This document shows positions 4,880 to 54,757 of a stretch of DNA of 64,000 nt, in pieces. The notes below the pieces were generated by a model. The model had not been told where the DNA came from. It saw only the letters and a list, made by a program, of their open reading frames with translations, and searched no databases. Made by a program: the position numbers and the translations under genes. The DNA is from Bombyx mori (Eukaryota; Arthropoda; Insecta; Lepidoptera; Bombycidae), in assembly GCF_030269925.1 (NCBI RefSeq), contig NC_085124.1, positions 8,742,001 to 8,806,000 of the forward strand. Reading direction: 5' to 3'. Every line of letters starts with the position of its first letter. The stretch's first letter is position 1.

Positions 4880-5045
4880 ATTCAAATTCAAATTCAAAAT
4901 CATTTATTTCAACTTAGATGTCAGTATGACACACTTGTTGAATGTCAAAATATAAATAACAATGTTAACTCTACCACCGGTTCCAAAAAAAGCCAGTCCT
5001 GAGAAGAACCGGCGAAACAAACTCAACGGGCTTTTTTTTTTCTCA
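4880..5045 (-). mobile_element. LINE 3'-end remnant with the shared 3'UTR hairpin motif
   Basis: A T-rich start with repeated TTCAAA blocks precedes a segment at 4999-5031. On the minus strand that segment resembles the 3'UTR hairpin of the Jockey-clade elements: a TTGAG arm, a loop with GCCGG, and a CTCAG arm. I take it as a decayed 3' end of a third LINE family. Boundaries are approximate. Confidence 0.4.
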
Positions 5046-6852: not shown

Positions 6853-8107
6853 ATAGTTTGTGTTTTCAATTTGAATTATACAAAAATTAAGGAACATAAA
6901 AACCGTTTAGGTACTGACCTAAACTGCGGCCCGCACATAATATTCATACGCCTCAAACTGTGGTATTTTCCTATCATAAAATAATTATGGGCTGAATTTG
7001 GTCGCTATGTTAGCGAGGGTGGCAGATAATTGAACTATACACTTCAGTTCTTTATCTAAGTTCCGATAGCACCATTTGTGAAGAATACCTCTTTAATGGC
7101 TACCCTTACTGAAATGGGCTAACGAATAAAGTCAATCTTCTTAACTTAAATCCTTAGCGCGGTCATAACTCAAGTTTATAGAGTTTCGGGACTTTTGGGC
7201 GATAGATTTTAGAGGGTGTTTAAGTTTATTGCCGCTTTGAACGAATTTAGATCAGGAATGATGAGAATTCCGTTCTGTACAGTTTTTCGTTTTACAAATA
7301 AATGACTTCTTGTCCTTTCACTGAGATTTCAGGGTATTTTAGAACTATTTCTGAAGCCATAATAGGAAATAAACTATAAGTTTATAAGTAAGCCGAAAAG
7401 GTTATTCGTTTAATCTATACTGATATTTATGTGAAAGCCATTAATAGTCTAAACCAACAATAATATTAATCGAATAACTCCTATTAGAAGAAAATATAAA
7501 ATACTACGGAAACTATCTAAATAAAAGAAGACAATTAGACATAACGTCAACATTCGCGCTGTTATTACAATATTGTTTGGTGTTTAAGTGATTCGGGTCA
7601 AGGTGTCGTCGTGTTAAGCATATGCTTTCTTTCCATTAGGGGTGACATGTGAAATTCATAATAAACAAATTGATGGTGTAATGTTGTAGACGGTGTAAAC
7701 ATTGTCATTGAAACCTCCGTTGAATGCTATAATTTTGTTTTTATTAAAGTTTACATGAGCAGAAAAATAATTTAGGGATAAAAAAAAACAGATAAATTAT
7801 TCAACTTTCAATATAGAAAACGTTTCAACAACAACTTAATTGAATTTTATTGGATTTTTTTGCCAGCTGAAAAAGATTTCTATGTAATCAGTGTGATGTC
7901 TCTTGCTTGTGCGGGCTAGATCATCTTGAAAGCATAGAGGAAGACAGTGCGGTGAAGACAGTACATTTGCTGGGTTTGTGCAGTAAACAACCTGTCGGGC
8001 GGCCACGCTGCCGTAGGCTCGATGAAGTTAGAAAATGTTCTCGTTAGACTCGTCGGATAGAACGAAATTTTCAACGTGCAAACAAGCTTATAGACACATA
8101 TATACAA
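6853..8107. other. Non-coding stretch
   Basis: Mostly AT-rich. The piece at 7915-8107 is GC-richer and lies directly upstream of a LINE 3' end, so it may be decayed LINE sequence, but no domain could be read. Confidence 0.4.
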
Positions 8108-8300
8108 CCCCTTCAGTTTTCGCCGGATCTTCTCAGTGGGTCGCGATTCCGGTCTTATGGTAGATTAAGCGAAACACTGCTCTTGCTAGGGGTAGTCTTA
8201 GCAATTTTCTCAGATTAAGCTCACCTACCAGTCTGCACGTAGTTGTAATAGCCCCTTAGGCTGCCATCGATTTGGTAGGGAAAAAATTTAGAAAAGATAT
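8108..8300 (+). mobile_element. Decayed 3' end of a Jockey-related LINE family
   Basis: It carries the block CGCCGGATCTTCTCAG and the following GTGGGTCGCG shared with the LINE 3'UTRs at 17800-18200, 41290-41648 and the intact elements. The left hairpin arm is eroded (CTTCAG instead of ACTGAG). The closest relatives are the 17.8-kb and 41.3-kb copies. Confidence 0.6.
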
Positions 8301-17799: not shown

Positions 17800-18200
17800 T
17801 TTTTTTTTTCTACCTAAGCCTTGAGAGGCTAGCGTAGGTGAGCTCATGGGGCTCAAACCGGAGTGATGCTAACACTGACCCTAACAAGAGCAGCGCTTCG
17901 CAGAATCTACCACCGGATCGGAAACGCGACCCACTGAGAAGATCCGGCGAGAAACTCAGTGGGCTGTATCTGTGAGTTAATTCGCTGGTCGAGCCCTTCT
18001 TCGCAAGCAACGGGTTCGACGAGGACGGTGACCGGTGCTTGAGGTACCTAAAAGCACCGTTAATGGATCGGGAGGATCCGTAATGACGTGTTTTGGGCCT
18101 TTTTTTGGGCCGGGGACCGAACCTCTTATGCGGTGTCCACGCTGAGGGGCCGCTCGGGATATGTGGGACTGCCAAAATGGTAATGGCCGCCACCGTTATG
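17800..18200 (-). mobile_element. 5'-truncated 3' end of a Jockey-related LINE (second family)
   Basis: A T run (poly(A)) at 17800-17809 is followed on the minus strand by a 3'UTR. That 3'UTR shares with the intact Jockey-clade elements the blocks TACGGATCC, CTCGTCGAAC and the hairpin at 17930-17963 (CCCACTGAG / CTCAGTGGG arms). A plus-strand sister copy lies at 41290-41648. It is distinct from the intact family over most of its length. Confidence 0.7.
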
Positions 18201-24117: not shown

Positions 24118-24810
24118 TATATAAAATTTAATTTTCCATAGGTAATATATTTCACAAATTCTTCTTTTTAATTATTTTCAGCTGTAACCAGGGAAATTGT
24201 TTCCAAATGTTCGAAATTGTAAATTTACTGTAAAATGTAATTGTAAGTACTCGTAATGTTAACGAGAAAAAGTCTAAGAAAATATAGTTGGGTTGACTTC
24301 TATTCAAATACACGTGTATTACTCGTACTTATTGAATGTAGAAGCAAATACTAAAATACGCCTGTTCGGAGTATGAATAATAGAACATCACAAGAAATCT
24401 GAATCTATTGTATGAAAATATATAATGGCTTCGAAGATATTACAATTATTGTATTCACAGAATGAGTCACTTAACTCTACATTCGATATCACTTTATTAT
24501 TGTGGAGACCAAATTTGAAAAACGAAATGTATTTATTATTCATTTATGTCAAACAGTTCAGTTCAGTTAGTTATTCGAGTATGTATGAAGCTTTCTTTTA
24601 CAATGTTTAATTTTTTTAGACCAATTTTTTTATGGTTTTTTTTTTAAGTACTACAATAATTTTGGAAAATAAATTTTCTCGCTCGCTAGCTGCTGTTTCT
24701 TGAGTTATTTCGCTCGTTTTTCTTAGAACTGTGGTAAATTTAGGAATGTATGGTAGATCTTTTAGATTTCGACATTCATCAACTGTGATACGATGTCACC
24801 TTAATTGAAA
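24118..24810. other. AT-rich non-coding stretch
   Basis: Nothing recognised in this interval. Confidence 0.5.
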
Positions 24811-27200: not shown

Positions 27201-29509
27201 CTAATTTTATACTTCAAAGCAGTACCAATTATGGCTCTCTCTTGAAGGATAAAACAAATGTTATAAAATTATGTTTTCGACTTAATATCTCAATTTGGGC
27301 TCTTTATTTCTGTATATGAGTACAGGAGCTCACAACCCATCTGATCTTAAACTAAATCCACAACCAACCCAAAAATAATACCACGACATTTTTTTGAGAT
27401 CACATTTTATGAGGTGAACTCGCCTGACTGAGAAAATAACAATACAATAAATCATTGAATGTTATAAATTTCTTGAACTCTATTGAGTGCTATATTTCTG
27501 TAGTACACAGAATAACAATAAGATTGATATTAGAAGCGAACGTTATACAAGTGCTTCAATATATTACAGAGCACGTTATTCTTCGAAGAAAAACTCGCTC
27601 ACCTAAGGAGTGCGAACGTTTTCGATTTATACGTCGTCACTATAACGACATTTTTATTGAACGTTACTGAAATAATTTCACGATACGATATGTGCGTATT
27701 TCGCGTGTCAGCGCAAGCAGGTGCTCGTATCAGAGACGTGTCCTGTCAGCAAAGATAACAGCACACGCATATTATATACGTTTTCGGTTTATTCCGGTTA
27801 TCCTGTCGTTTATAATGTAGTTGTATAGAAAATCTTGGTTATTGAACACACAAAAATATGGTGCTTTGCGCGCATTTGAAAATGGAACTACACCTCACTA
27901 ATTTAATACGACGGTAAACATAATTTTTGTTTTTGCTTATTTGATGAATTTTAATCGTTATAGTGGCTGAACCAATTGACATGTGGGTTTTTAGGTTGTT
28001 GATATAACTACTGGTAGTAGATAATCGTTTGAGCCCGCCCAGGTTGGTGATACCACACGTCCCTTTCATTATAACATCACTTTTCATCAGCTGAAATTCT
28101 TTGTAATAAAAAAAGACGTGTGGCACTCGGGGACTGCCGCGGTAAAACTATTGCAAAGCATTTTTTATCAACTTATGCAATTACAATTAGACAATAATAA
28201 TTTAATATTAAAACAATAATAAAATAAGACCACGCTGTATTTATAAACATTAACAAAATCAAAACATTAACTGTCCCCTTCACACTCATAAGCTAGACCG
28301 CGTGAAAGAGAGATGGGCAGACTTTTCATGATGCTCATGCAGTGCGACGTCACGCCGCGCGCTTAATCACAAACACTACACCAGCGCAACTTATGAATGT
28401 GCTGAACGCGAGCTACATAGTAGGCGTAGTGGGTGTGTCAGGTTATTTTCGTTACGGAATTTCTTGATTCAGTCGCCGCGCTCAAAGCCCGCGATAGAAG
28501 CTATGCAATAGCTTAATAACATAACACTCAATTAAAACAAAAATGTAATAAAGTCAATTACTTAATAATTTATTCGGCAAAATATTTATCGTACTAAAAG
28601 AGTTGCTTTCAGTTTAATTTGATTTATGTATTGAAGTCAAATTTTCAATAATTAAGTTTCGGCAGGGTTTGTTTTAAATGTCACTGAAGTCACCGTGTTC
28701 GACAAAATCGATTTACATTACAACGTTTTACTAAAAGTTTCTTTGTAACTTACTGTAAGCACTGTATTTTATATATTGTATTTCAATATTCAGCATTGAT
28801 AACGAAACGTGCCTTATACATAACACCGACATGTCACGGAGGAAAACAGTTTTTCATTGATTCGGCGGCACATCTGGCGACAAAACGCCGCGGGCTTTCT
28901 ATTCTGATGACCTGACTTGACATTTTTATTGCTCACCATATTTTTCTCGGCCTCCAAGGCATTCGTCGTTTATGTGAAGGCAGCGTAAAATATTGTGAAA
29001 CTTGAAGAGGACAGAACAGATATTATGATATTACTGACACGATATATTGAGGAACTTTTGACGTCGATGGGCCGGTGCTCTGGTCTTTTGGCTCGGATTT
29101 TTTATCGTTTTTGTTTTATCTTTTATCGCGTCAGTTTGAAAAAGTTGCGGCTAAAATTACTGTTCGCTTGCGGTAACGTCGAAAGTTAACCATCTGGCCC
29201 TAAAATATATGGACTTAGGTGACCTAGAAATGGACGGGTTTAATATATTTTTTTGAAGACAGTGGTTCCAATTTGTTTTTTTGTTGTATGTGAGTGAAAA
29301 ATTTAGGATCATGTCAGCGCATAGGACCTTATTTTGACGATTCGCTTTGGAGACATAGACAAGGGAGCTGCCCAATCTTTTTGCTGTTCTGTAGTTTGTG
29401 GAAGTGCTTCGTACCGGTACTCGGAGACTGGATAGTTGCCACTGAGGACGCGTTATTTTCGAAGTGGTACAGTCGCAGACCGAGCGCGGTTGGCATGGCG
29501 GAGTATGTA
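27201..29509. other. Non-coding stretch with CpG-richer blocks
   Basis: A degraded Bm1-like piece lies near 27984-28060. CpG-containing blocks lie at 28270-28500 and 28860-28990, without a convincing open frame. No exon could be defined. Confidence 0.4.
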
Positions 29510-33409: not shown

Positions 33410-33443
33410 CCCGCTGAGAAGATCCGGCGAGAAACTCAGCGAG
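33410..33443 (-). other. 3'UTR stem-loop of Jockey-clade copy 1
   Basis: On the minus strand the arms are CTCGCTGAG and CTCAGCGGG around a 16-nt loop containing GCCGG. They form nine pairs with one G-T wobble. The same hairpin occurs in the other LINE 3' ends in the window. It lies ~15 bases after the ORF2 stop and may be a reverse-transcriptase recognition element. Confidence 0.6.
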
Positions 33444-33455
33444 CTGATTCATGGG

Positions 33456-36332
33456 TTAGGTTGCACGGCGAACTCTTTGTCGAGTTCGACGAGTACGGTT
33501 ACCGAGGTCCCTAAGCCTGCTCCTAGAGCTGAAGGCGTCTAGTGCGAAGGTTATTGGATCTGATGGATCCGTAAGGACGTGTCTAGGGCGTCGACGGTGA
33601 CTGGCTCCTGCATGGTCAGGATTCGGGGAGTAGTCAGCGGCGGCTACGATAAGGCGATTATCATGACGCATAGCCTTATCGAAGTACCGTTCCGACGCTG
33701 ACTTCATGTATTTCTGTATAGATTCGAGGCCCAGGTCGTCGTGTAGGTCAATGTTCCTCACGAACCACGGAGCTCCGACGGCTAACCTGCAAAAGCGGGA
33801 TTGTAGAGATTGAAGGGTGTCTATGTGCGTGCGGGCCGCGTGAGCGAACACCACACTCGCGTAAGTCATGACGGGCCTTATGCAAGTTTTGTAAAGTGTC
33901 ACCTTGTTCCGAAGGGACATTTTACTCCGCTTACAAATCATGGGGTAGAGTCTACCGAGAATAAACGCGGCACGGTCACGGACTGATTTTATATGCGGGC
34001 GGAATGTCATCGATGCATCCAGGGTAACGCCCAGGTACTTGACCTTCCTGGCCCAGGGTATGGATTGACTAAAGAGAGTAATCGGGGGTGTGAGATTCCT
34101 CCTCCTAATACGGGAGGAAATCCGTGTGGAGCTTCCCCTCTGAAAGAGCACCGCAGTACTTTTCGCTGGGTTGATGTCTATGCGCCATTTTCGGAACCAC
34201 TGTCCTAGGGCTAGGGCTGCGCTCTGAAGCTTCTTCGCGATTAGGGACTTGTTTCTACTGGAATAGTAAACAGTCGTGTCGTCGGCGAATAAAGCTAAAT
34301 GGGTCGGCGGCGACCGGGGAATATCGTTAACGAATAAGCTAAATAGGAGGGGTGAGAGGACAGAGCCTTGCGGGACTCCAGCTGTGAGAGGTCGTAGGGA
34401 GGAGCGGGTTCCCTCGACTCGATATCGAAAAGAGCGGTTCGACAAGAAGTCCCGTATGATGAGCACGAGACTATCCGGCACACCCATGTTGAATAGTTTG
34501 AAAATCAAACCGTTGTGCCAGACTTTGTCGAACGCTTTTGCGACGTCGAAGAAGAGAGCTCCCGTGTATAACGGTTTTGGTCGATTAAGCCCCACAAGAA
34601 TGTGCTCCGTGAGGCGGTGCACCTGTTGAACGCATGAGTGATTTGTACGGAATCCGAATTGTTCATCGATGAGAATGCCCTTGGATGAGACGAAGTCTCT
34701 GAGGCGTTTGTAGAGCAGACGCTCATACAGTTTGCCTAGAGACATGAGGAGGCTAATCGGGCGGTAGCTCGTCGGATGATTTTTTGGTTTACCGGGTTTA
34801 TGTATGCCGATAACGTCCGCTTCTTTCCACACCGCGGGAAAGATACAGTTCGCCATAGCGGCATTGAAAATAGATGCCAACATCACGATGAGTTGGACGG
34901 GTAGAAGTTTAATAACGCGGTTGGATATACCGTCGGAACCGGGAGCCTTGCGAGGACGTAGGTCTTTGATCAAGTCTTTAACTTCCATCGGGGTGACGGG
35001 TGGTAACACATCAGAGGGTGGCAAGGAGGCTCTGCGTTCTACCTCACTGTCTACTAATTCTACATGCACAGGGTCCACGGATTGAGTGCTGGGCGTGCAC
35101 TGGGTTTGCAACGTATCGGCCAGCAGCTCTGCTTTTTCGTCATCATCGAACGCCGTGAGTCGGCCTGAGGGGCCTACGAGGGGGGGCATAGTTACTACCG
35201 TATCCGATTTGAGAGTACGAGCTAAGCGGTAGTAAGACCTTTGGGAGGGCGCGAGTCCTTCTAAGAAATCAGACCATCTGGCATCTCGGACTTCGGCGAT
35301 GCGAGACTTTACGTCGCGTTGTAGGGCACGCATTCGAATACGATTTTCCGCGGTAGGATACCTGTCGTAGGCGCGTATCGAGGCGTTCTTAGCTCTAAGG
35401 AGTTCCCTAATATCGTCGGACAATTTGAAGCGGTGAAGGAAGTCCTCCGCTACAACTTGTTTCGATGACCTATCTAATATCGAGGTGATGTGTGACGTTA
35501 AGATGTCTATGGCTTCAGCGGTATCCTGAGGAGACGGGGTAGAGTCCGGGCTAAACGGTAGCGATGGTGGATCAGATTCAGCCAGGCTGATGCCCAGCGT
35601 GTGCCAATCCACCACAGTCCTCGTGACGGGAACGGAATCGGGAGCGCGACCGAGCTTCATAACGACGGGACGGTGGTCTGAATCTAACTCTGAAACTACT
35701 TCGATCGAGTGTAAGCGCAGAGTTACGTTTTTTAATAACGCTATGTCGAGTATATCCGGGCGATGCGCGATATTTAGCGGGTAGTGAGTCGGGATTAGCG
35801 GAGCGACGATATCGAAGGCGAGATTATCGACTAACGCGTCAAGCCGCCTGCCATTCGGGGTTGTGGTGTGTGAGTTCCACCTAATGTGTTTACAATTTAG
35901 GTCGCCCGCCAGAATGACAGAGCTCCCCATGCCGAGCAGCGCCTCGATATCACTGCTTAGAACGATCTTATCCGGTGGAAGATAAACGGACGCGATAACG
36001 ATCGGCGCGTGTCCCGTCAGTGAGATTCGGCACACTGATGCTTCGATATTAGCGAGCGCGGGAGGATCGAGTGGGACGCAATGCAGGGCTCTTCTATAAT
36101 AAATGACGGTACCACCACCACGAGCAGAGAGCCTGTCGTTCCTGACCATGTTATAGTTCGCGATTTTAGGGTCACGGCGCGCGGGCTTAAGTAGGGTCTC
36201 CTGCACTAAAAAGATATCAATTTGATGGTCACGCAAAAAGTCAGAAACCTGATCACGCTGATTTGCGAGACCGTAAGCGTTAAAAAATCCTATCGTTACG
36301 GATAGGGGCTTTATTCTACTTATATACGCCAT
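33456..36332 (-). CDS. ORF2: endonuclease-reverse transcriptase, Jockey clade, copy 1
   Basis: A protein of 958 residues, the usual size for Jockey-clade ORF2. Residues 1-225 form an AP-type endonuclease: Asn in FFNAYG (~19), Glu in QETLL (~45), AGDLNCKH (~142-149) and SDH (~218-220). The reverse transcriptase occupies about 450-750, with FFDVAKAFD (first Asp ~596), AGVPQGSVLSPLL and FADD (~682-685). The endonuclease would nick target DNA and the RT would prime cDNA on the nick. The frame is intact. The start ATG follows the ORF1 stop by only three bases, in the same frame. It is about 97-98% identical in protein to the copy at 44722-47604, with scattered substitutions and a different extreme C-terminus. 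Confidence 0.93.
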   Translation of the reverse strand: MAYISRIKPLSVTIGFFNAYGLANQRDQVSDFLRDHQIDIFLVQETLLKPARRDPKIANYNMVRNDRLSARGGGTVIYYRRALHCVPLDPPALANIEASVCRISLTGHAPIVIASVYLPPDKIVLSSDIEALLGMGSSVILAGDLNCKHIRWNSHTTTPNGRRLDALVDNLAFDIVAPLIPTHYPLNIAHRPDILDIALLKNVTLRLHSIEVVSELDSDHRPVVMKLGRAPDSVPVTRTVVDWHTLGISLAESDPPSLPFSPDSTPSPQDTAEAIDILTSHITSILDRSSKQVVAEDFLHRFKLSDDIRELLRAKNASIRAYDRYPTAENRIRMRALQRDVKSRIAEVRDARWSDFLEGLAPSQRSYYRLARTLKSDTVVTMPPLVGPSGRLTAFDDDEKAELLADTLQTQCTPSTQSVDPVHVELVDSEVERRASLPPSDVLPPVTPMEVKDLIKDLRPRKAPGSDGISNRVIKLLPVQLIVMLASIFNAAMANCIFPAVWKEADVIGIHKPGKPKNHPTSYRPISLLMSLGKLYERLLYKRLRDFVSSKGILIDEQFGFRTNHSCVQQVHRLTEHILVGLNRPKPLYTGALFFDVAKAFDKVWHNGLIFKLFNMGVPDSLVLIIRDFLSNRSFRYRVEGTRSSLRPLTAGVPQGSVLSPLLFSLFVNDIPRSPPTHLALFADDTTVYYSSRNKSLIAKKLQSAALALGQWFRKWRIDINPAKSTAVLFQRGSSTRISSRIRRRNLTPPITLFSQSIPWARKVKYLGVTLDASMTFRPHIKSVRDRAAFILGRLYPMICKRSKMSLRNKVTLYKTCIRPVMTYASVVFAHAARTHIDTLQSLQSRFCRLAVGAPWFVRNIDLHDDLGLESIQKYMKSASERYFDKAMRHDNRLIVAAADYSPNPDHAGASHRRRPRHVLTDPSDPITFALDAFSSRSRLRDLGNRTRRTRQRVRRAT

Positions 36333-41289: not shown

Positions 41290-41648
41290 CTTTTGTGAGG
41301 GCACGTATTGGTGAATTAGCACGTCATTCCGGATCCTCCCGATCCACTAACGGTGCTTTTAGGCACACCAAGCACCGGTCATCGTTCTCGTCGAACCTGT
41401 CACTTGCGACGACGGGCTCGGCGAGTAAATTAACCCACAGACACAGCCTACTGAGTTTCTCGCCGGATCTTCTCAGTGGGTCGCGTTTCCGATTCGGTGG
41501 TAGATTCTGCGAAGCACGGCTCTTGCTAGGGTTCGTATTCGGGTTCGTGTTAGCAACATCGTCAGGCTTAAGCCCCGTGAGCTCACCTACTAGTTAAGGT
41601 TACGCTGATATGGTCTCTCTAGACCATCAGCTTAGGTAGGAAAAACAA
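41290..41648 (+). mobile_element. 5'-truncated 3' end of a Jockey-related LINE (second family)
   Basis: A plus-strand sister of 17800-18200. The hairpin arms at 41447-41455 (CCTACTGAG) and 41472-41480 (CTCAGTGGG) pair with one G-T wobble. It ends near CTTAGGTAGGAAAAA. An open frame of 100 codons through it has no function I can support. Confidence 0.7.
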
Positions 41649-42862: not shown

Positions 42863-43009
42863 GTACCTGCGCCTAATTGCAAGGCATTGCCGCCCGGGAA
42901 CTGTGCAGGTATTCTATTCACTCTAATTCTATTCTATTTATTCTATTCACTAAAATTTCTAAAATTCCTAGAATCGCTTCGGCCAATTTAGTGTTACCGA
43001 CACAGGGGC

Positions 43010-43059
43010 CTCGCCGCAAGGCGAGCGCGTGTTTAAGTCCCGGGGCAGCCCCCCCTGGG
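43010..43059 (+). other. Two tandem hairpins in the 5'UTR, copy 2
   Basis: CTCGCC-GCAA-GGCGAG (43010-43025) is identical to copy 1. The second stem, CCCGGG (43039-43044) with CCTGGG (43054-43059), has a G-T wobble where copy 1 has an A-T pair. They lie 12-60 bases upstream of the ORF1 ATG. Confidence 0.55.
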
Positions 43060-43071
43060 CAGTCCGAAAAA

Positions 43072-44718
43072 ATGGAGTTTTCTCCAACCAACACACTGCT
43101 CGCGGAATTCTTAAGCGAGAAATACCCGGCCCTTGAATCAGAATTTTTAGCTTACAAAGCTAAACGCGCCGTGAACTGTTCTACCGCGCCCGTCGTTTCC
43201 GCCACGCCTGCCGTTCCCGCGTCTCCTGCAAGCGCGCGCAAAACTCCCGCGCCGTACACCGCAGCCTCCGTCGCGCCCAGCACACCCGTGTCTCCCATAC
43301 TGTCGCGAAAAACTCCCGCGTCTACCGTGGCAGCTTCCATTCTACCTCAGCGATCTTCTGCGGCTTCCGTCGCGTCCGCCGCTCCCGCGCCTTCCTCCTC
43401 GTCCTCCGACTCTGACTCGGATATGGAGGTTGACCTCGTTCCCGCCTCATTAACAGATGGATTCACCCTCGTGCAAAAGGGTAAGAAGCGCGCCGCGGAG
43501 TCCCGAGCTTCCGCGGCCGCTAAAATAAGCAAAGCCGCGAACGCGTCGCGCCCCCGCCCTCCGACCCCCGTCGCTCCCTGTCCCCGTGCCACGCCGTCGC
43601 CGCGCCCGGTGGCACAAACGAGAAATCAGGCCCCTCCTCCGTTAATTCTTCAAGAGAAGGCTGCTTGGGACCGTGTCTCCCTGGCCCTTAAGGCCAAGAA
43701 CATAAATTTTGTCAGTGCCCGTAACCTCGCGAACGGGATACAGATAAAAGTAGCAACACCCGACGACCATAGGGCCCTCTCAAGCTACCTCCGAAAGGAG
43801 CGTATAAGTTATCATACGTATATGCTCCAGGAGGAGCGTGAGCTCCGTGCAGTCATACGTGGCATCCCCAAGGAGTTAGATGCCGATCTCGTAAAGGCCG
43901 ACCTACTCGAACAAGGCCTACCCGTAAACTCCGTGCACCGCATGCACACAGGACGCGGGAGGGAGCCATACAATATGGTTCTCGTCGCCCTCCAGTCTAC
44001 CCCCGAGGGTAAGCAAATCTTTAACGTTCGAACGGTCTGTAGGCTTTCCGGAATCACCGTGGAAACCCCTCATAAAAAAGGCACTCCGAGCCAGTGCCAC
44101 AATTGTCAGTTGTACGGGCATTCTTCCCGTAATTGTCACGCACGTCCTCGATGCGTCAAGTGTTTGGACGACCACGCCACGACTCTTTGCATTCGCGATC
44201 AAAAAACCGCGACGGAACCACCTAGCTGCGTCCTGTGCCGAACACAGGGTCACCCCGCGAATTACCGTGGATGCCCCCGAGCCCCTAAAATAAATCGCCG
44301 CGTCGGGCGCCAAAACCGCCTCCGAGCTTCCGGCCCTGACATCAAAGCCACGGCACCCTCTGTGCCGAAGGCTAAGCCTGCCTTCGTGCCGGCGCCGGTG
44401 CCCAGCGGCTCGGCCTGGGCTAAACCGTTGCCGTACACGAACAAGGTTGTAGCTCCCTCCCCCGCGATTCGTCCCGCCCCCGCGATACGTCCCTCCCCCG
44501 TGATTCGTTCCTCCCCTGCGACCAGCACTCCGACCGCGTCCGACAATCTCGCTCTAGCGATCGACTTTTTTCAGTCGATCAACTTTGAGCGTGTTAATGC
44601 TTTGGGTGACGCCATTCGCGCCGCCTCCACTGCACAACACTTCATCGCCGTTGTGCAAGAATACGCTGACGTATACGCGTCGTTAAATACGTACGTCCTC
44701 CCCTCACTCCGCCGGTAA
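43072..44718 (+). CDS. ORF1: Gag-like nucleic-acid-binding protein, copy 2
   Basis: The ATG at 43072 (MEFSPTNTLL) gives 548 residues. The frame is open further upstream, but this is the first ATG after the conserved hairpins and matches copy 1. Residues ~35-140 are Ala/Pro/Ser/Thr-rich, then comes SSSSDSDSDMEVDL. Three zinc knuckles follow: CHNCQLYGHSSRNC at 342-355, CVKCLDDHATTLC at 361-373 and CVLCRTQGHPANYRGC at 386-401. A Pro-rich linker and a conserved end (NTYVLPSLRR) close the protein. Copy 2 carries about six extra residues in the Pro-rich linker compared with copy 1. Its likely role is RNA binding and chaperoning in the ribonucleoprotein. Confidence 0.9.
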   Translation: MEFSPTNTLLAEFLSEKYPALESEFLAYKAKRAVNCSTAPVVSATPAVPASPASARKTPAPYTAASVAPSTPVSPILSRKTPASTVAASILPQRSSAASVASAAPAPSSSSSDSDSDMEVDLVPASLTDGFTLVQKGKKRAAESRASAAAKISKAANASRPRPPTPVAPCPRATPSPRPVAQTRNQAPPPLILQEKAAWDRVSLALKAKNINFVSARNLANGIQIKVATPDDHRALSSYLRKERISYHTYMLQEERELRAVIRGIPKELDADLVKADLLEQGLPVNSVHRMHTGRGREPYNMVLVALQSTPEGKQIFNVRTVCRLSGITVETPHKKGTPSQCHNCQLYGHSSRNCHARPRCVKCLDDHATTLCIRDQKTATEPPSCVLCRTQGHPANYRGCPRAPKINRRVGRQNRLRASGPDIKATAPSVPKAKPAFVPAPVPSGSAWAKPLPYTNKVVAPSPAIRPAPAIRPSPVIRSSPATSTPTASDNLALAIDFFQSINFERVNALGDAIRAASTAQHFIAVVQEYADVYASLNTYVLPSLRR

Positions 44719-44721
44719 TCA

Positions 44722-47604
44722 ATGGCGTACATAAGTAGAATAAAGCCCCTATCCGTAACGATAGGATTTTTTAACGCTTACGGTCTCGCAAATCAACGTG
44801 ATCAGGTTTGTGATTTTTTGCGTGACCATCAAATTGACATCTTTTTGGTGCAGGAGACCCTGCTTAAGCCCGCGCGCCGCGACCCTAAAATCGCGAACTA
44901 TAACATGGTTAGGAACGACAGGCTCACTGCTCGTGGTGGTGGTACCGTCATTTACTATAGACGAGCCCTGCACTGCGTCCCACTCGACCCCCCCGCGCTT
45001 TCTAACATCGAAGCATCAGTATGCCGAATCTCACTGACTGGACACGCGCCGATCGTTATCGCGTCCGTTTATCTTCCACCGGATAAGATCGTTCTAAGCA
45101 GTGATATCGAGGCGCTGTTCGGCATGGGAAGCTCTGTCATTCTGGCGGGCGACCTAAATTGTAAACACGTCAGGTGGAACTCACACACCACAACCCCGAA
45201 TGGCAGGCGGCTTGACGCGTTAGTCGATGATCTCGCCTTCGATATCGTCGCTCCGCTAATTCCGACTCACTACCCGCTAAATATCGCACATCGCCCGGAT
45301 ATACTCGACATAGCGTTATTAAAAAACGTAACTCTGCGCTTACACTCGATCGAAGTCGTTTCAGAGTTAGATTCAGACCACCGTCCCGTCGTTATGAAGC
45401 TCGGTCGCGCTCCCGATTCCGTTCCCGTCACGAGGACTGTGGTGGATTGGCACACGCTGGGCATCAGCCTGGCTGAATCTGATCCACCATCGCTCCCGTT
45501 TAACCCGGACTCTACCCCGTCTCCTCAGGATACCGCTGAAGCCATAGACATCTTAACGTCACACATCACCTCGACATTAGATAGGTCATCGAAACAAGTT
45601 GTAGCGGAGGACTTCCTTCACCGCTTCAAATTGTCCGACGATATTAGGGAACTCCTTAGAGCTAAGAACGCCTCGATACGCGCCTACGACAGGTATCCTA
45701 CCGCGGAAAATCGTATTCGAATGCGTGCCCTACAACGCGACGTAAAGTCTCGCATCGCCGAAGTCCGAGATGCCAGATGGTCTGATTTCTTAGAAGGGCT
45801 CGCGCCCTCCCAAAGGTCTTACTACCGCTTAGCTCGTACTCTCAAATCGGATACGGTAGTAACTATGCCCCCCCTCGTAGGCCCCTCAGGCCGACTCGCG
45901 GCGTTCGATGATGATGAAAAAGCAGAGCTGCTGGCCGATACATTGCAAACCCAGTGCACGCCCAGCACTCAATCCGTGGACCCTGGTCATGTAGAATTAG
46001 TAGACAGTGAGGTAGAACGCAGAGCCTCCTTGCCACCCTCGGATGCGTTACCACCCGTCACCCCGATGGAAGTTAAAGACTTGATCAAAGACCTACGTCC
46101 TCGCAAGGCTCCCGGTTCCGACGGTATATCTAACCGCGTTATTAAACTTCTACCCGTCCAACTCATCGTGATGTTGGCATCTATTTTCAATGCCGCTATG
46201 GCGAACTGTATCTTTCCCGCGGTGTGGAAAGAAGCGGACGTTATCGGCATACATAAACCCGGTAAACCAAAAAATCATCCGACGAGCTACCGCCCGATTA
46301 GCCTCCTCATGTCTCTAGGCAAACTGTATGAGCGTCTGCTCTACAAACGCCTCAGAGACTTCGTCTCATCCAAGGGCATTCTCATCGATGAACAATTCGG
46401 ATTCCGTACAAATCACTCATGCGTTCAACAGGTGCACCGCCTCACGGAGCACATTCTTGTGGGGCTTAATCGACCAAAACCGTTATACACGGGAGCTCTC
46501 TTCTTCGACGTCGCAAAAGCGTTCGACAAAGTCTGGCACAATGGTTTGATTTTCAAACTATTCAACATGGGCGTGCCGGATAGTCTCGTGCTCATCATAC
46601 GGGACTTCTTGTCGAACCGCTCTTTTCGATATCGAGTCGAGGGAACCCGCTCCTCCCCACGACCTCTCACAGCTGGAGTCCCGCAAGGCTCTGTCCTCTC
46701 ACCCCTCCTATTTAGCTTATTCGTCAACGATATTCCCCGGTCGCCGCCGACCCATTTAGCTTTATTCGCCGACGACACGACTGTTTACTATTCTAGTAGA
46801 AATAAGTCCCTAATCGCGAAGAAGCTTCAGAGCGCAGCCCTAGCCCTAGGACAGTGGTTCCGAAAATGGCGCATAGACATCAACCCAGCGAAAAGTACTG
46901 CGGTGCTATTTCAGAGGGGAAGCTCCACACGGATTTCCTCCCGGATTAGGAGGAGGAATCTCACACCACCGATTACTCTCTTTAGACAACCCATACCCTG
47001 GGCTAGGAAGGTCAAGTACCTGGGCGTTACCCTGGATGCATCGATGACATTCCGCCCGCATATAAAATCAGTCCGTGACCGTGCCGCGTTTATTCTCGGT
47101 AGACTCTACCCCATGATCTGTAAGCGGAGTAAAATGTCCCTTCGGAACAAGGTGACACTTTACAAAACTTGCATAAGGCCCGTCATGACTTACGCGAGTG
47201 TGGTGTTCGCTCACGCGGCCCGCACACACATAGACACCCTACAATCCCTACAATCCCGCTTTTGCAGGTTAGCTGTTGGGGCTCCGTGGTTCGTGAGGAA
47301 CGTTGACCTACACGACGACCTGGACCTCGAATCAATTCGGAAATACATGAAGTCAGCGTCGGAACGATACTTCGATAAGGCTATGCGTCATGATAATCGC
47401 CTTATCGTTGCCGCCGCTGACTACTCCCCGAATCCTGATCATGCAGGAGCCAGTCACCGTCGACGCCCTAGACACGTCCTTACGGATCCATCAGATCCAA
47501 TAACCTTTGCATTAGATGCCTTCAGCTCTAATACTAGGGGCAGGCTTACGGACCCCGGTAACCGTACTCGTCGAACTGGACAAAGAGGTCGACGTGCAAC
47601 CTAA
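44722..47604 (+). CDS. ORF2: endonuclease-reverse transcriptase, Jockey clade, copy 2
   Basis: 960 residues, intact. The AP-endonuclease motifs are Asn 19, Glu 45 (QETLL), Asp 144/Asn 146 (GDLN) and Asp 219-His 220 (SDHRPV). The reverse transcriptase core has Asp 596 (FFDVAKAFD), GVPQGSVLSPLL (~652-663) and FADD 682-685. A C-terminal region without a clear zinc finger follows. No RNase H domain is apparent. The start codon lies three bases after the ORF1 UAA in the same frame, so ORF2 could be made by reinitiation or by stop-codon readthrough. All key catalytic residues are present, so this copy may be mobile. Confidence 0.93.
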   Translation: MAYISRIKPLSVTIGFFNAYGLANQRDQVCDFLRDHQIDIFLVQETLLKPARRDPKIANYNMVRNDRLTARGGGTVIYYRRALHCVPLDPPALSNIEASVCRISLTGHAPIVIASVYLPPDKIVLSSDIEALFGMGSSVILAGDLNCKHVRWNSHTTTPNGRRLDALVDDLAFDIVAPLIPTHYPLNIAHRPDILDIALLKNVTLRLHSIEVVSELDSDHRPVVMKLGRAPDSVPVTRTVVDWHTLGISLAESDPPSLPFNPDSTPSPQDTAEAIDILTSHITSTLDRSSKQVVAEDFLHRFKLSDDIRELLRAKNASIRAYDRYPTAENRIRMRALQRDVKSRIAEVRDARWSDFLEGLAPSQRSYYRLARTLKSDTVVTMPPLVGPSGRLAAFDDDEKAELLADTLQTQCTPSTQSVDPGHVELVDSEVERRASLPPSDALPPVTPMEVKDLIKDLRPRKAPGSDGISNRVIKLLPVQLIVMLASIFNAAMANCIFPAVWKEADVIGIHKPGKPKNHPTSYRPISLLMSLGKLYERLLYKRLRDFVSSKGILIDEQFGFRTNHSCVQQVHRLTEHILVGLNRPKPLYTGALFFDVAKAFDKVWHNGLIFKLFNMGVPDSLVLIIRDFLSNRSFRYRVEGTRSSPRPLTAGVPQGSVLSPLLFSLFVNDIPRSPPTHLALFADDTTVYYSSRNKSLIAKKLQSAALALGQWFRKWRIDINPAKSTAVLFQRGSSTRISSRIRRRNLTPPITLFRQPIPWARKVKYLGVTLDASMTFRPHIKSVRDRAAFILGRLYPMICKRSKMSLRNKVTLYKTCIRPVMTYASVVFAHAARTHIDTLQSLQSRFCRLAVGAPWFVRNVDLHDDLDLESIRKYMKSASERYFDKAMRHDNRLIVAAADYSPNPDHAGASHRRRPRHVLTDPSDPITFALDAFSSNTRGRLTDPGNRTRRTGQRGRRAT

Positions 47605-47616
47605 CCCATGCATCAG

Positions 47617-47650
47617 CCCGCTGAGTTTCTCGCCGGATCTTCTCAGCGGG
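47617..47650 (+). other. 3'UTR stem-loop of Jockey-clade copy 2
   Basis: CCCGCTGAG (47617-47625) pairs perfectly with CTCAGCGGG (47642-47650) around a 16-nt loop with GCCGG. In the second LINE family the arms are CCCACTGAG / CTCAGTGGG, a compensatory change. It lies 12 bases after the ORF2 stop. Confidence 0.65.
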
Positions 47651-47847
47651 TCGCGATTCCGATCCGGTAGTAGATTCATTCGCGAAACAATTGCTCTTGA
47701 GTTGTTAGGTCTCCTTCGGAGGCGCTCGGGCAGTTGTTAGCAAATCCCGCCCCTCTTGGCTGAGCCTTTGCTCGCCCACCTGTCCTGGTGAAACTGGAAA
47801 GGCCTTCGGGCCACCAGTAAACTTTCAACCATAAAAAAAAAAAAAAA

Positions 47848-54457: not shown

Positions 54458-54757
54458 GGATTGAAGGATTACTGGTGGCCCGGAGGCCTTTCCAGTTTCA
54501 CCAGGACAGGTGGACGAGCAAAGGCTCAGCCAGGAGGGGTGGGATTTGCTAACAGCTACCCGAGCGCCTCCGAAGGAGACCTAACAACTCAAGAGCAGCT
54601 GCTTCGCGAATGAATCTACTACCGGATCGGAATCGCGACCCGCTGAGAAGATCCGGCGAAAAACTCAGCGAGCTGATTCATGGGTTAGGTTGCACGGCGA
54701 ACTCTTTGTCGAGTTCGACGAGTACGGTTACTGGGGTCCCTAAGCCTACTTCTAGTG
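54458..54757 (-). mobile_element. Jockey-clade copy 3, 3' part (interrupted by an R1-clade insertion)
   Basis: A T run (54458-54466) is followed by the 3'UTR and last codons of the same family as the two intact elements, including the hairpin at 54639-54672. The sequence breaks at 54757 and resumes at 59054 after the R1-clade insertion. Confidence 0.88.
54748..54757. repeat. Target-site duplication of the R1-clade insertion, left copy
   Basis: ACTTCTAGTG recurs at 59044-59053. Removing the insertion and one copy restores the LINE sequence order seen in the intact elements. Confidence 0.88.

Follow-up and report, generated by a model that had tools for sequence, protein, structure and literature searches.

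In a 64,000-nt stretch of the Bombyx mori genome (the window), a 9-bp stem-loop (S1) stands at the start of the 3′UTR of a Jockey-type LINE, and its loop is complementary to a strand further downstream. Our preferred reading is that S1 is probably one half of an H-type pseudoknot, with a further stem-loop (SL3) next to it, which serves as an RNA recognition module for the element. The pseudoknot itself is predicted from sequence comparison with good support, and we consider it highly probable. Its use as a recognition handle, suggested by analogy with other LINEs, is about an even call. The features within the window are as follows.

42877–44718 (+): ORF1 of the host LINE (copy 2), 613 aa, PRE_C2HC
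44722–47604 (+): ORF2 of the host LINE (copy 2), 960 aa, endonuclease and reverse transcriptase (RT)
47617–47625 (+): 5′ arm of S1 (a), CCCGCTGAG, reported stem
47632–47639 (+): 5′ strand of S2 (b), GCCGGATC, loop core of S1
47642–47650 (+): 3′ arm of S1 (a′), CTCAGCGGG, reported stem
47651–47685 (+): SL2, arms TCGCG (47651–47655) and CGCGA (47681–47685), flanking b′
47661–47668 (+): 3′ strand of S2 (b′), GATCCGGT, closing the proposed H-type pseudoknot
47688–47736 (+): SL3, arms CAATTGCTC (47688–47696) and GGGCAGTTG (47728–47736), covarying within families
33410–33443 (−): S1 stem-loop of another family-1 copy in which both ORFs are open (ORF2 at 33456–36332)
54639–54672 (−): S1 stem-loop of a 5′-truncated family-1 copy
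17930–17963 (−): family-2 S1 stem-loop, arms CCCACTGAG/CTCAGTGGG
41447–41480 (+): family-2 S1 stem-loop; S2 partner GATTCGGT, in which a G·U preserves pairing
8107–8140 (+): decayed copy, loop core retained and 5′ arm gone
4954–5031 (−): family-3 module copy; S1 5′ arm 5030–5022 with inner 3′ arm 5003–4999; S2 strands 5013–5006 GCCGGTTC and 4983–4976 GAACCGGT

The stem-loop and its host LINE

S1 begins 12 nt past the ORF2 stop codon (TAA, 47602–47604), and the hairpin at 47617–47650 (+) encloses the loop TTTCTCGCCGGATCTT. An earlier sequence-only reading had described stems at 47617, 17930, 33410, 54639, and 41447, and its arms, loops, and coordinates were all correct. Shuffles predict 0.04 occurrences of the core GCCGGATCTT in the window, where six are present; the sixth copy (8107–8140), absent from that reading, is the one with a decayed 5′ arm. 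The 9-bp stem folds in five of the six copies, with minimum free energies of −14.1 to −17.9 kcal/mol and z-scores of −2.8 to −4.2. A non-pseudoknotted fold of the entire 3′UTR (~230 nt in family 1) includes S1, SL2, and SL3 (z −3.14), and the best non-pseudoknotted fold of an isolated 60-nt family-1 piece is one without S1 (−20.8). Rfam covariance models gave no hit above the gathering threshold at the module. The one sub-threshold hit at E ≤ 10 within the 261-nt stretch 47580–47840 lay at 47754–47816 (−), outside the module. A self-cleaving ribozyme identity was rejected on the lack of an Rfam match at the module.

Two abundant Jockey-type LINE families (families 1 and 2) bear the module at the start of the 3′UTR. 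Jockey-clade elements are defined by an ORF1 with PRE_C2HC and an ORF2 with an APE endonuclease and RT but without RNase H. Pfam searches of the host LINE found this domain content, with PF07530 in ORF1, PF03372/PF14529 and PF00078 in ORF2 only, and RNase H absent. A search with the ORF2 protein found 108 proteins, of which those with names were mostly lepidopteran, including hits that are by name a "mobile element jockey" (P0059) and a "transposon BS" (P0044). Lepidopteran relatives among them, such as P0032, P0037, and P0042, share 53–57% identity in ORF2. Judged by domains and hit names, the host LINE with its poly(A) end is consistent with the Jockey group. The poly(A) tract of the family-1 copy lies ~215 nt downstream of the S1 start, and A runs terminate several family-2 copies. 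The ORF2 of a family-2 copy (L031) shares 74% identity with that of family 1 over 473 residues. A divergent ORF2 query of the genome returned 16,698 candidates, of which 51 matches were scored. All 51 were free of internal stops and 48 had a 961-aa open frame; family 1 therefore looks young. The 30 scored matches that were read all bear the family-1 module, and no new family emerged from them.

Several other features of the host LINE were observed. The ORF1 stop and ORF2 start at 44716–44724 read TAA-TCA-ATG in one frame with a spacing of 3 nt, a spacing also found in the (−) copy at 36332/36336, and termination–reinitiation at this junction is possible. Two microRNA families of silkworm in Rfam, mir-2780 and mir-2822, gave matches; the latter matches the antisense strand of ORF2 at 33874–33940 (+) and 47114–47180 (−), with 87.1 and 86.8 bits, in both LINE copies that have open ORFs, and this "miRNA" may be LINE-derived. 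A protein 99% identical to the host ORF2 (P0001) is filed under Acinetobacter baumannii in an assembly whose longest contig has 2952 bases, and is probably insect DNA inside a bacterial assembly.

Pairing of the loop with a downstream strand

The loop strand GCCGGATC can pair with GATCCGGT, 21 nt downstream, in a helix (S2) of 8–10 bp. The strands follow the order a-b-a′-b′, as in an H-type pseudoknot, and the family-1 loops measure 6, 2, and 10 nt. Chance complementarity between loop and partner in one family had a shuffle p of 0.006 to 0.20, so that a single-family match could be accidental. We found two further module types. The family-3 copy in the window, overlooked by the sequence-only reading, was picked up when the window and sampled loci were scanned with a relaxed pattern, and a second scan gave a fourth type, in locus L055. 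The statement of that reading that the loop core stayed the same holds for families 1 and 2, but families 3 and 4 have a changed loop together with a matching changed partner. The S2 strands are GCCGGTTC/GAACCGGT in family 3, which reads CCCGCTGAGTTTGTTTCGCCGGTTCTTCTCAG...GGAACCGGTGGTAGA and whose genome-wide count used the partner GAACCGG, and GCCAGTTC/GAATTGGC in family 4 (L055). In both families, S1 has only 5 bp plus outer pairs past a bulge or internal loop, as in the single copies L098 (CCCG-CTGAG with CTCAG-GA-CGGG) and L055 (TCCG-CTGAG with CTCAG-GA-CGGA). By eye, the outer S1 pair differs on both sides between these two single family-4 copies.

We aligned five representatives of the four families. 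The alignment does not place the bulge of families 3 and 4, and their outer S1 pairs were therefore left uncounted. Of the 70 cells counted, 69 were paired, with one exception in family 1, at the last outer pair of S2, and slid versions paired at 19–44%. Three S2 pairs were changed on both sides, two of them backed by many copies and the outermost by L055 alone; S2 thus carries, across families, the compensatory changes expected of an H-type pseudoknot. Among 500 shuffles, two reached the pairing percentage, two the covariation score, 32 the three both-sided pairs, and 351 the number of pair types.

We also examined the whole genome (461.7 Mb, 30 contigs). The core TTYTCGCCGGATCTT occurs 12,810 + 12,999 = 25,809 times, against 0 + 1 for the reversed control. 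In the context of families 3/4, S2 pair 4 had linked counts of 699 for G/C (partner pattern GAACCGG), 381 for A/T (GAAYTGG), 32 for A/C (GAAYCGG), and 17 for G/T (GAAYTGG), and the reversed controls of all four patterns gave 0. The figure of 699 is if anything low, because the G/C pattern lacks the Y used in the other partner patterns; 16 of these places were read and comprised 15 family-3 copies and L098. A pattern with any non-G at this position matched 448 places, with A in all 100 among the matches listed. Mixed states of this pair are rare, and the double change is present throughout a family with several hundred members. Copies within one family are not independent; the two-by-two table compares families, each double change is one event regardless of copy number, and the Fisher value of the counts was not taken as a probability.

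The three-nucleotide stretch TTT is missing from the first pseudoknot loop at 12 places genome-wide. The eight that were read (L001–L008) form a family-1 subgroup that keeps S1 and S2 whole, and the part of ORF2 read is 98–99% identical to the window copy. This subgroup is a natural loop-length variant that nonetheless spread. Searching 68 loci and the window with a model gave nothing new beyond old, decayed relatives; a weak match at 24695–24777 (+), with 25.1 bits, looks like such a relative of families 3/4. Two scans of viral contigs by pattern returned chance matches only (5 loci and 2 loci, with the rest of the module absent), and one scan with ORF2 returned no relative. As these scans beyond the genome gave no relative with the module, all of the covariation comes from one genome.

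Conservation and covariation of the stems

The G–C pair of family 1 and the A–T pair of family 2, on which the sequence-only reading had based its case for a compensatory change in S1, are real. Among 59 distinct copies, pair 4 of S1 was A–T in 30, G–C in 21, G·T in four, A·C in two, and otherwise in two. This set covers families 1 and 2 in a fixed register, after removal of six out-of-register or divergent copies from 65 distinct hits. Standard pairs made up 85–98% per position and Watson–Crick pairs 69–95%. Most of the 59 copies had been found with the exact core as search key, and loop conservation in this sample is therefore inflated; the S1 arms lay outside the key, except in the relaxed scan with CTCAG, which allowed up to 4 mismatches in 17.

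We compared 25 family-1 and 32 family-2 copies with a tree null (FastTree tree, 300 simulations preserving the number of changes per column), after exclusion of eight of the 65 hits that were <80% identical to either reference. Neither family contained a single cell with a both-sided change in S1. Canonical S1 cells numbered 218/225 in family 1 and 267/288 in family 2, values reached by 160 and 18 of the 300 simulations, respectively, and retention of S1 pairs was not clearly in excess of the null. The same applied to S2, with no both-sided change within either family (25 and 32 copies), 196/200 canonical cells in family 1 (150/300 simulations reach this value) and 243/256 in family 2 (129/300), again not clearly in excess. 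The proof drawn from the compensatory change in S1 is thus thin. The G–C/A–T double change is a single between-family event, which may have arisen by two substitutions in a single lineage, and selection on structure is not settled by it alone. The broader claim of selection on RNA structure is supported nevertheless, mainly through S2 across families and SL3 within them.

In SL3, family 1 had 17 both-sided cells against a tree-null mean of 0.9 (reached by 0/300 simulations), and family 2 had seven against 1.5 (5/300), these cells being copies and not evolutionary events. An example is CAATTG/CAGTTG versus CAGCTG/TAGCTG, and the covarying pair of family 2 was T–A in 20, G–C in seven, T·G in one, and mismatched in four of 32 copies. 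For SL2, the tree-based test on the family-1 and family-2 copies found no covariation. A kissing-loop form of b–b′ presented on SL2 was rejected, as the arms exist but do not covary, and the H-type form is preferred for this reason.

The stem is also better conserved than its flanks. In a comparison of one copy per family (the window copy and L031), 32 of the 34 stem-loop positions were identical, against 177 of 287 aligned positions over the final 305 nt of ORF2, 9/12 from the stop to the stem, 27 of the 37 that could be aligned at 47691–47760 (33 more gapped), and 42/72 at 47761–47832. From S1 to SL2, 64 of 70 aligned positions were identical, forming an island of conservation compared with 62% at the ORF2 end and 58% at the 3′UTR end.

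Proposed role, alternatives, and known systems

In the reading that we favor, the fold would form in the element RNA, and the ORF2 protein encoded by that element, or an ORF1–ORF2 particle, would bind it. Binding would mark the RNA for target-primed reverse transcription (TPRT), with the poly(A) tail supplying the priming end. By analogy with ZfL2 and R2, the S1–S2 pseudoknot and SL3 may together hold the RNA on its ORF2 protein. A landing site for reverse transcriptase, one of two roles proposed in the sequence-only reading, is plausible for S1; the other, a role in translation termination, found no support apart from position. Some function at the stop codon is conceivable.

It is unlikely that only the simple 9-bp stem-loop matters, with its core read single-stranded by a protein and the downstream match accidental. 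S1 does fold well by itself, the ORF2 protein reads the loop in ZfL2 LINEs according to the accessible part of PMC4176376, and complementarity within a single family reached a shuffle p of up to 0.20, but loop and downstream strand change between families at matching places and in matching ways (699/381/32/17). S1 and the b–b′ hairpin could instead be alternatives in a two-state switch, for example between translation and reverse transcription. The b–b′ hairpin is stable on its own (−10.2 to −11.8 kcal/mol), and rough duplex energies make S2 far stronger than the inner 5-bp S1 in family 3 (−15.8 versus −4.6 kcal/mol). In family 1, however, the 9-bp S1 is the stronger (−17.0 versus −12.8 kcal/mol for S2), and the topology and family-1 loop lengths would permit both helices together, so that we give a switch little credence. 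That there is no selection on the RNA at all, with recent common ancestry plus chance, or selection at the DNA level, behind the pattern, is very improbable. The core is near-invariant within families 1 and 2, where it was also the search key, and the S1 double change is found only between them; against this stand the within-family double changes in SL3, which exceed the tree null, and the double changes in S2 across families.

The 5′ edge of S1 bears on a further alternative. Upstream homology stops 0–3 nt before S1 in nine of 50 sampled exact-core copies; three of the nine belong to another repeat having only a 25-nt piece, which leaves 6/47 (L086, L089, L078, L080, L034, and L027). In the same 47 copies, seven ends lay 12–28 nt and four lay 51–58 nt upstream of S1. 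Relative to the neighboring density, the cluster has a Poisson p of ~0.007, in a small sample and post hoc. Two copies (L034 and L080) have poly(A) and, by eye, apparent target-site duplications, and among 18 further copies one (L007) ends 2 nt before S1 and another (L064) is ambiguous. The fold might thus stall a 5′–3′ exonuclease or mark a processing site, with 3′ fragments that begin at S1 surviving and being retrotransposed. We regard this as quite improbable: L089 loses LINE homology soon past the module too, enzyme drop-off or microhomology joining would yield the same cluster, and a plain H-type pseudoknot is not known to block an exonuclease. The cluster itself may come from enzyme drop-off, RNA processing, or microhomology joining.

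The repeat with the exact 25 nt CCCACTGAGTTTCTCGCCGGATCTT (S1 5′ arm and loop) was found at L030, L081, and L090, where the other half of the module is absent. By eye it has the look of a small DNA transposon bearing terminal inverted repeats, and a related repeat at 28108–28229 (−) in the window is without this piece.

Families 3 and 4 have tails of another kind. In the copies with a readable tail, TTTGAA/TTTGA-like repeats stand in place of poly(A): AATAAATGATTTTGAATTTGAATTTGAA comes after the family-3 module in the window, and TTTGATTTGATTTGA after the one in L055. The L055 module lies ~110 nt past the stop closing the open frame VRLYNKIPQDVQNLHIHRFKKTIKELLCNKAYYKVNDYLEDCTKWE, which we take to resemble the C-termini of CR1/L2/Daphne-group LINEs; a piece at L051 shares 34% identity with this frame over 41 residues. 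An RTE origin is disfavored, lepidopteran RTE 3′UTRs being extremely short according to the accessible part of PMC2887409. The module in families 3 and 4 may be a recognition handle that different element types have in common and have transferred among themselves. We put forward only tentatively, as a rather doubtful extension, that one pseudoknot module with >25,000 recognizable core copies is an exchangeable handle for at least two retroelement types, the poly(A) Jockey-type LINEs and elements with TTTGA-like tails, and that its 5′ edge sets truncation. A handle of this kind, if it exists, would link the "stringent" and "relaxed" modes of template recognition.

How poly(A)-type LINE proteins select their own RNA is an open question, as stated in the accessible part of PMC5135761. 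A pseudoknot that covaries, lies next to the stop codon of a very successful LINE, and recurs with matched changes in elements without poly(A) offers a concrete and easily mutated candidate for such a handle. Natural variants are at hand, such as the 12 places without TTT in the first loop. We found no report of such a pseudoknot in the literature covered, which excluded most subscription papers; as text, the core appeared in 0 papers and the family-3 core in one, on cattle.

Stringent-type LINEs (UnaL2, ZfL2-1, and ZfL2-2) offer one parallel, a 3′ RNA structure with a conserved loop and probable recognition by the cognate ORF2. As far as the accessible part of PMC4176376 describes, ORF2 binds their tail stem-loops through the region that separates its endonuclease from its RT domain, and ZfL2 ORF2 recognizes the stem generally and the loop specifically. 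Their structures are, in that text, hairpins in a short-repeat 3′ tail, whereas silkworm S1 lies beside the stop codon, ~215 nt before poly(A), with a second helix formed from its loop, and family 1 lacks the terminal structure with short-repeat tail of the stringent type. R2 also has a LINE 3′UTR pseudoknot: in the part of PMC12503042 available, the 3′UTR RNA forms a pseudoknot in vertebrate R2 of the A clade, while many other R2 elements have a stem-loop there, and the RT protein grips this RNA for TPRT. R2 has a restriction-like endonuclease and an rDNA target, whereas in the silkworm elements the endonuclease is of the APE type and poly(A) is present, a distinction by element type and not by sequence comparison. 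SART1 of Bombyx mori is likewise a silkworm LINE with poly(A) and 3′UTR stem-loops, but it is telomere-specific and of another clade (R1, a label also given in the accessible part of PMC5135761), and the word "pseudoknot" occurs 0 times in the main text searched. For human L1 and Alu, a 3′UTR stem-loop has similarly been proposed for a poly(A)-type LINE; in the accessible part of PMC5135761 it is a bulged structure within the last 50 bp, away from the stop codon and without a pseudoknot. Structured LINE 3′ ends are thus already known, and the silkworm pseudoknot is a new form of them.
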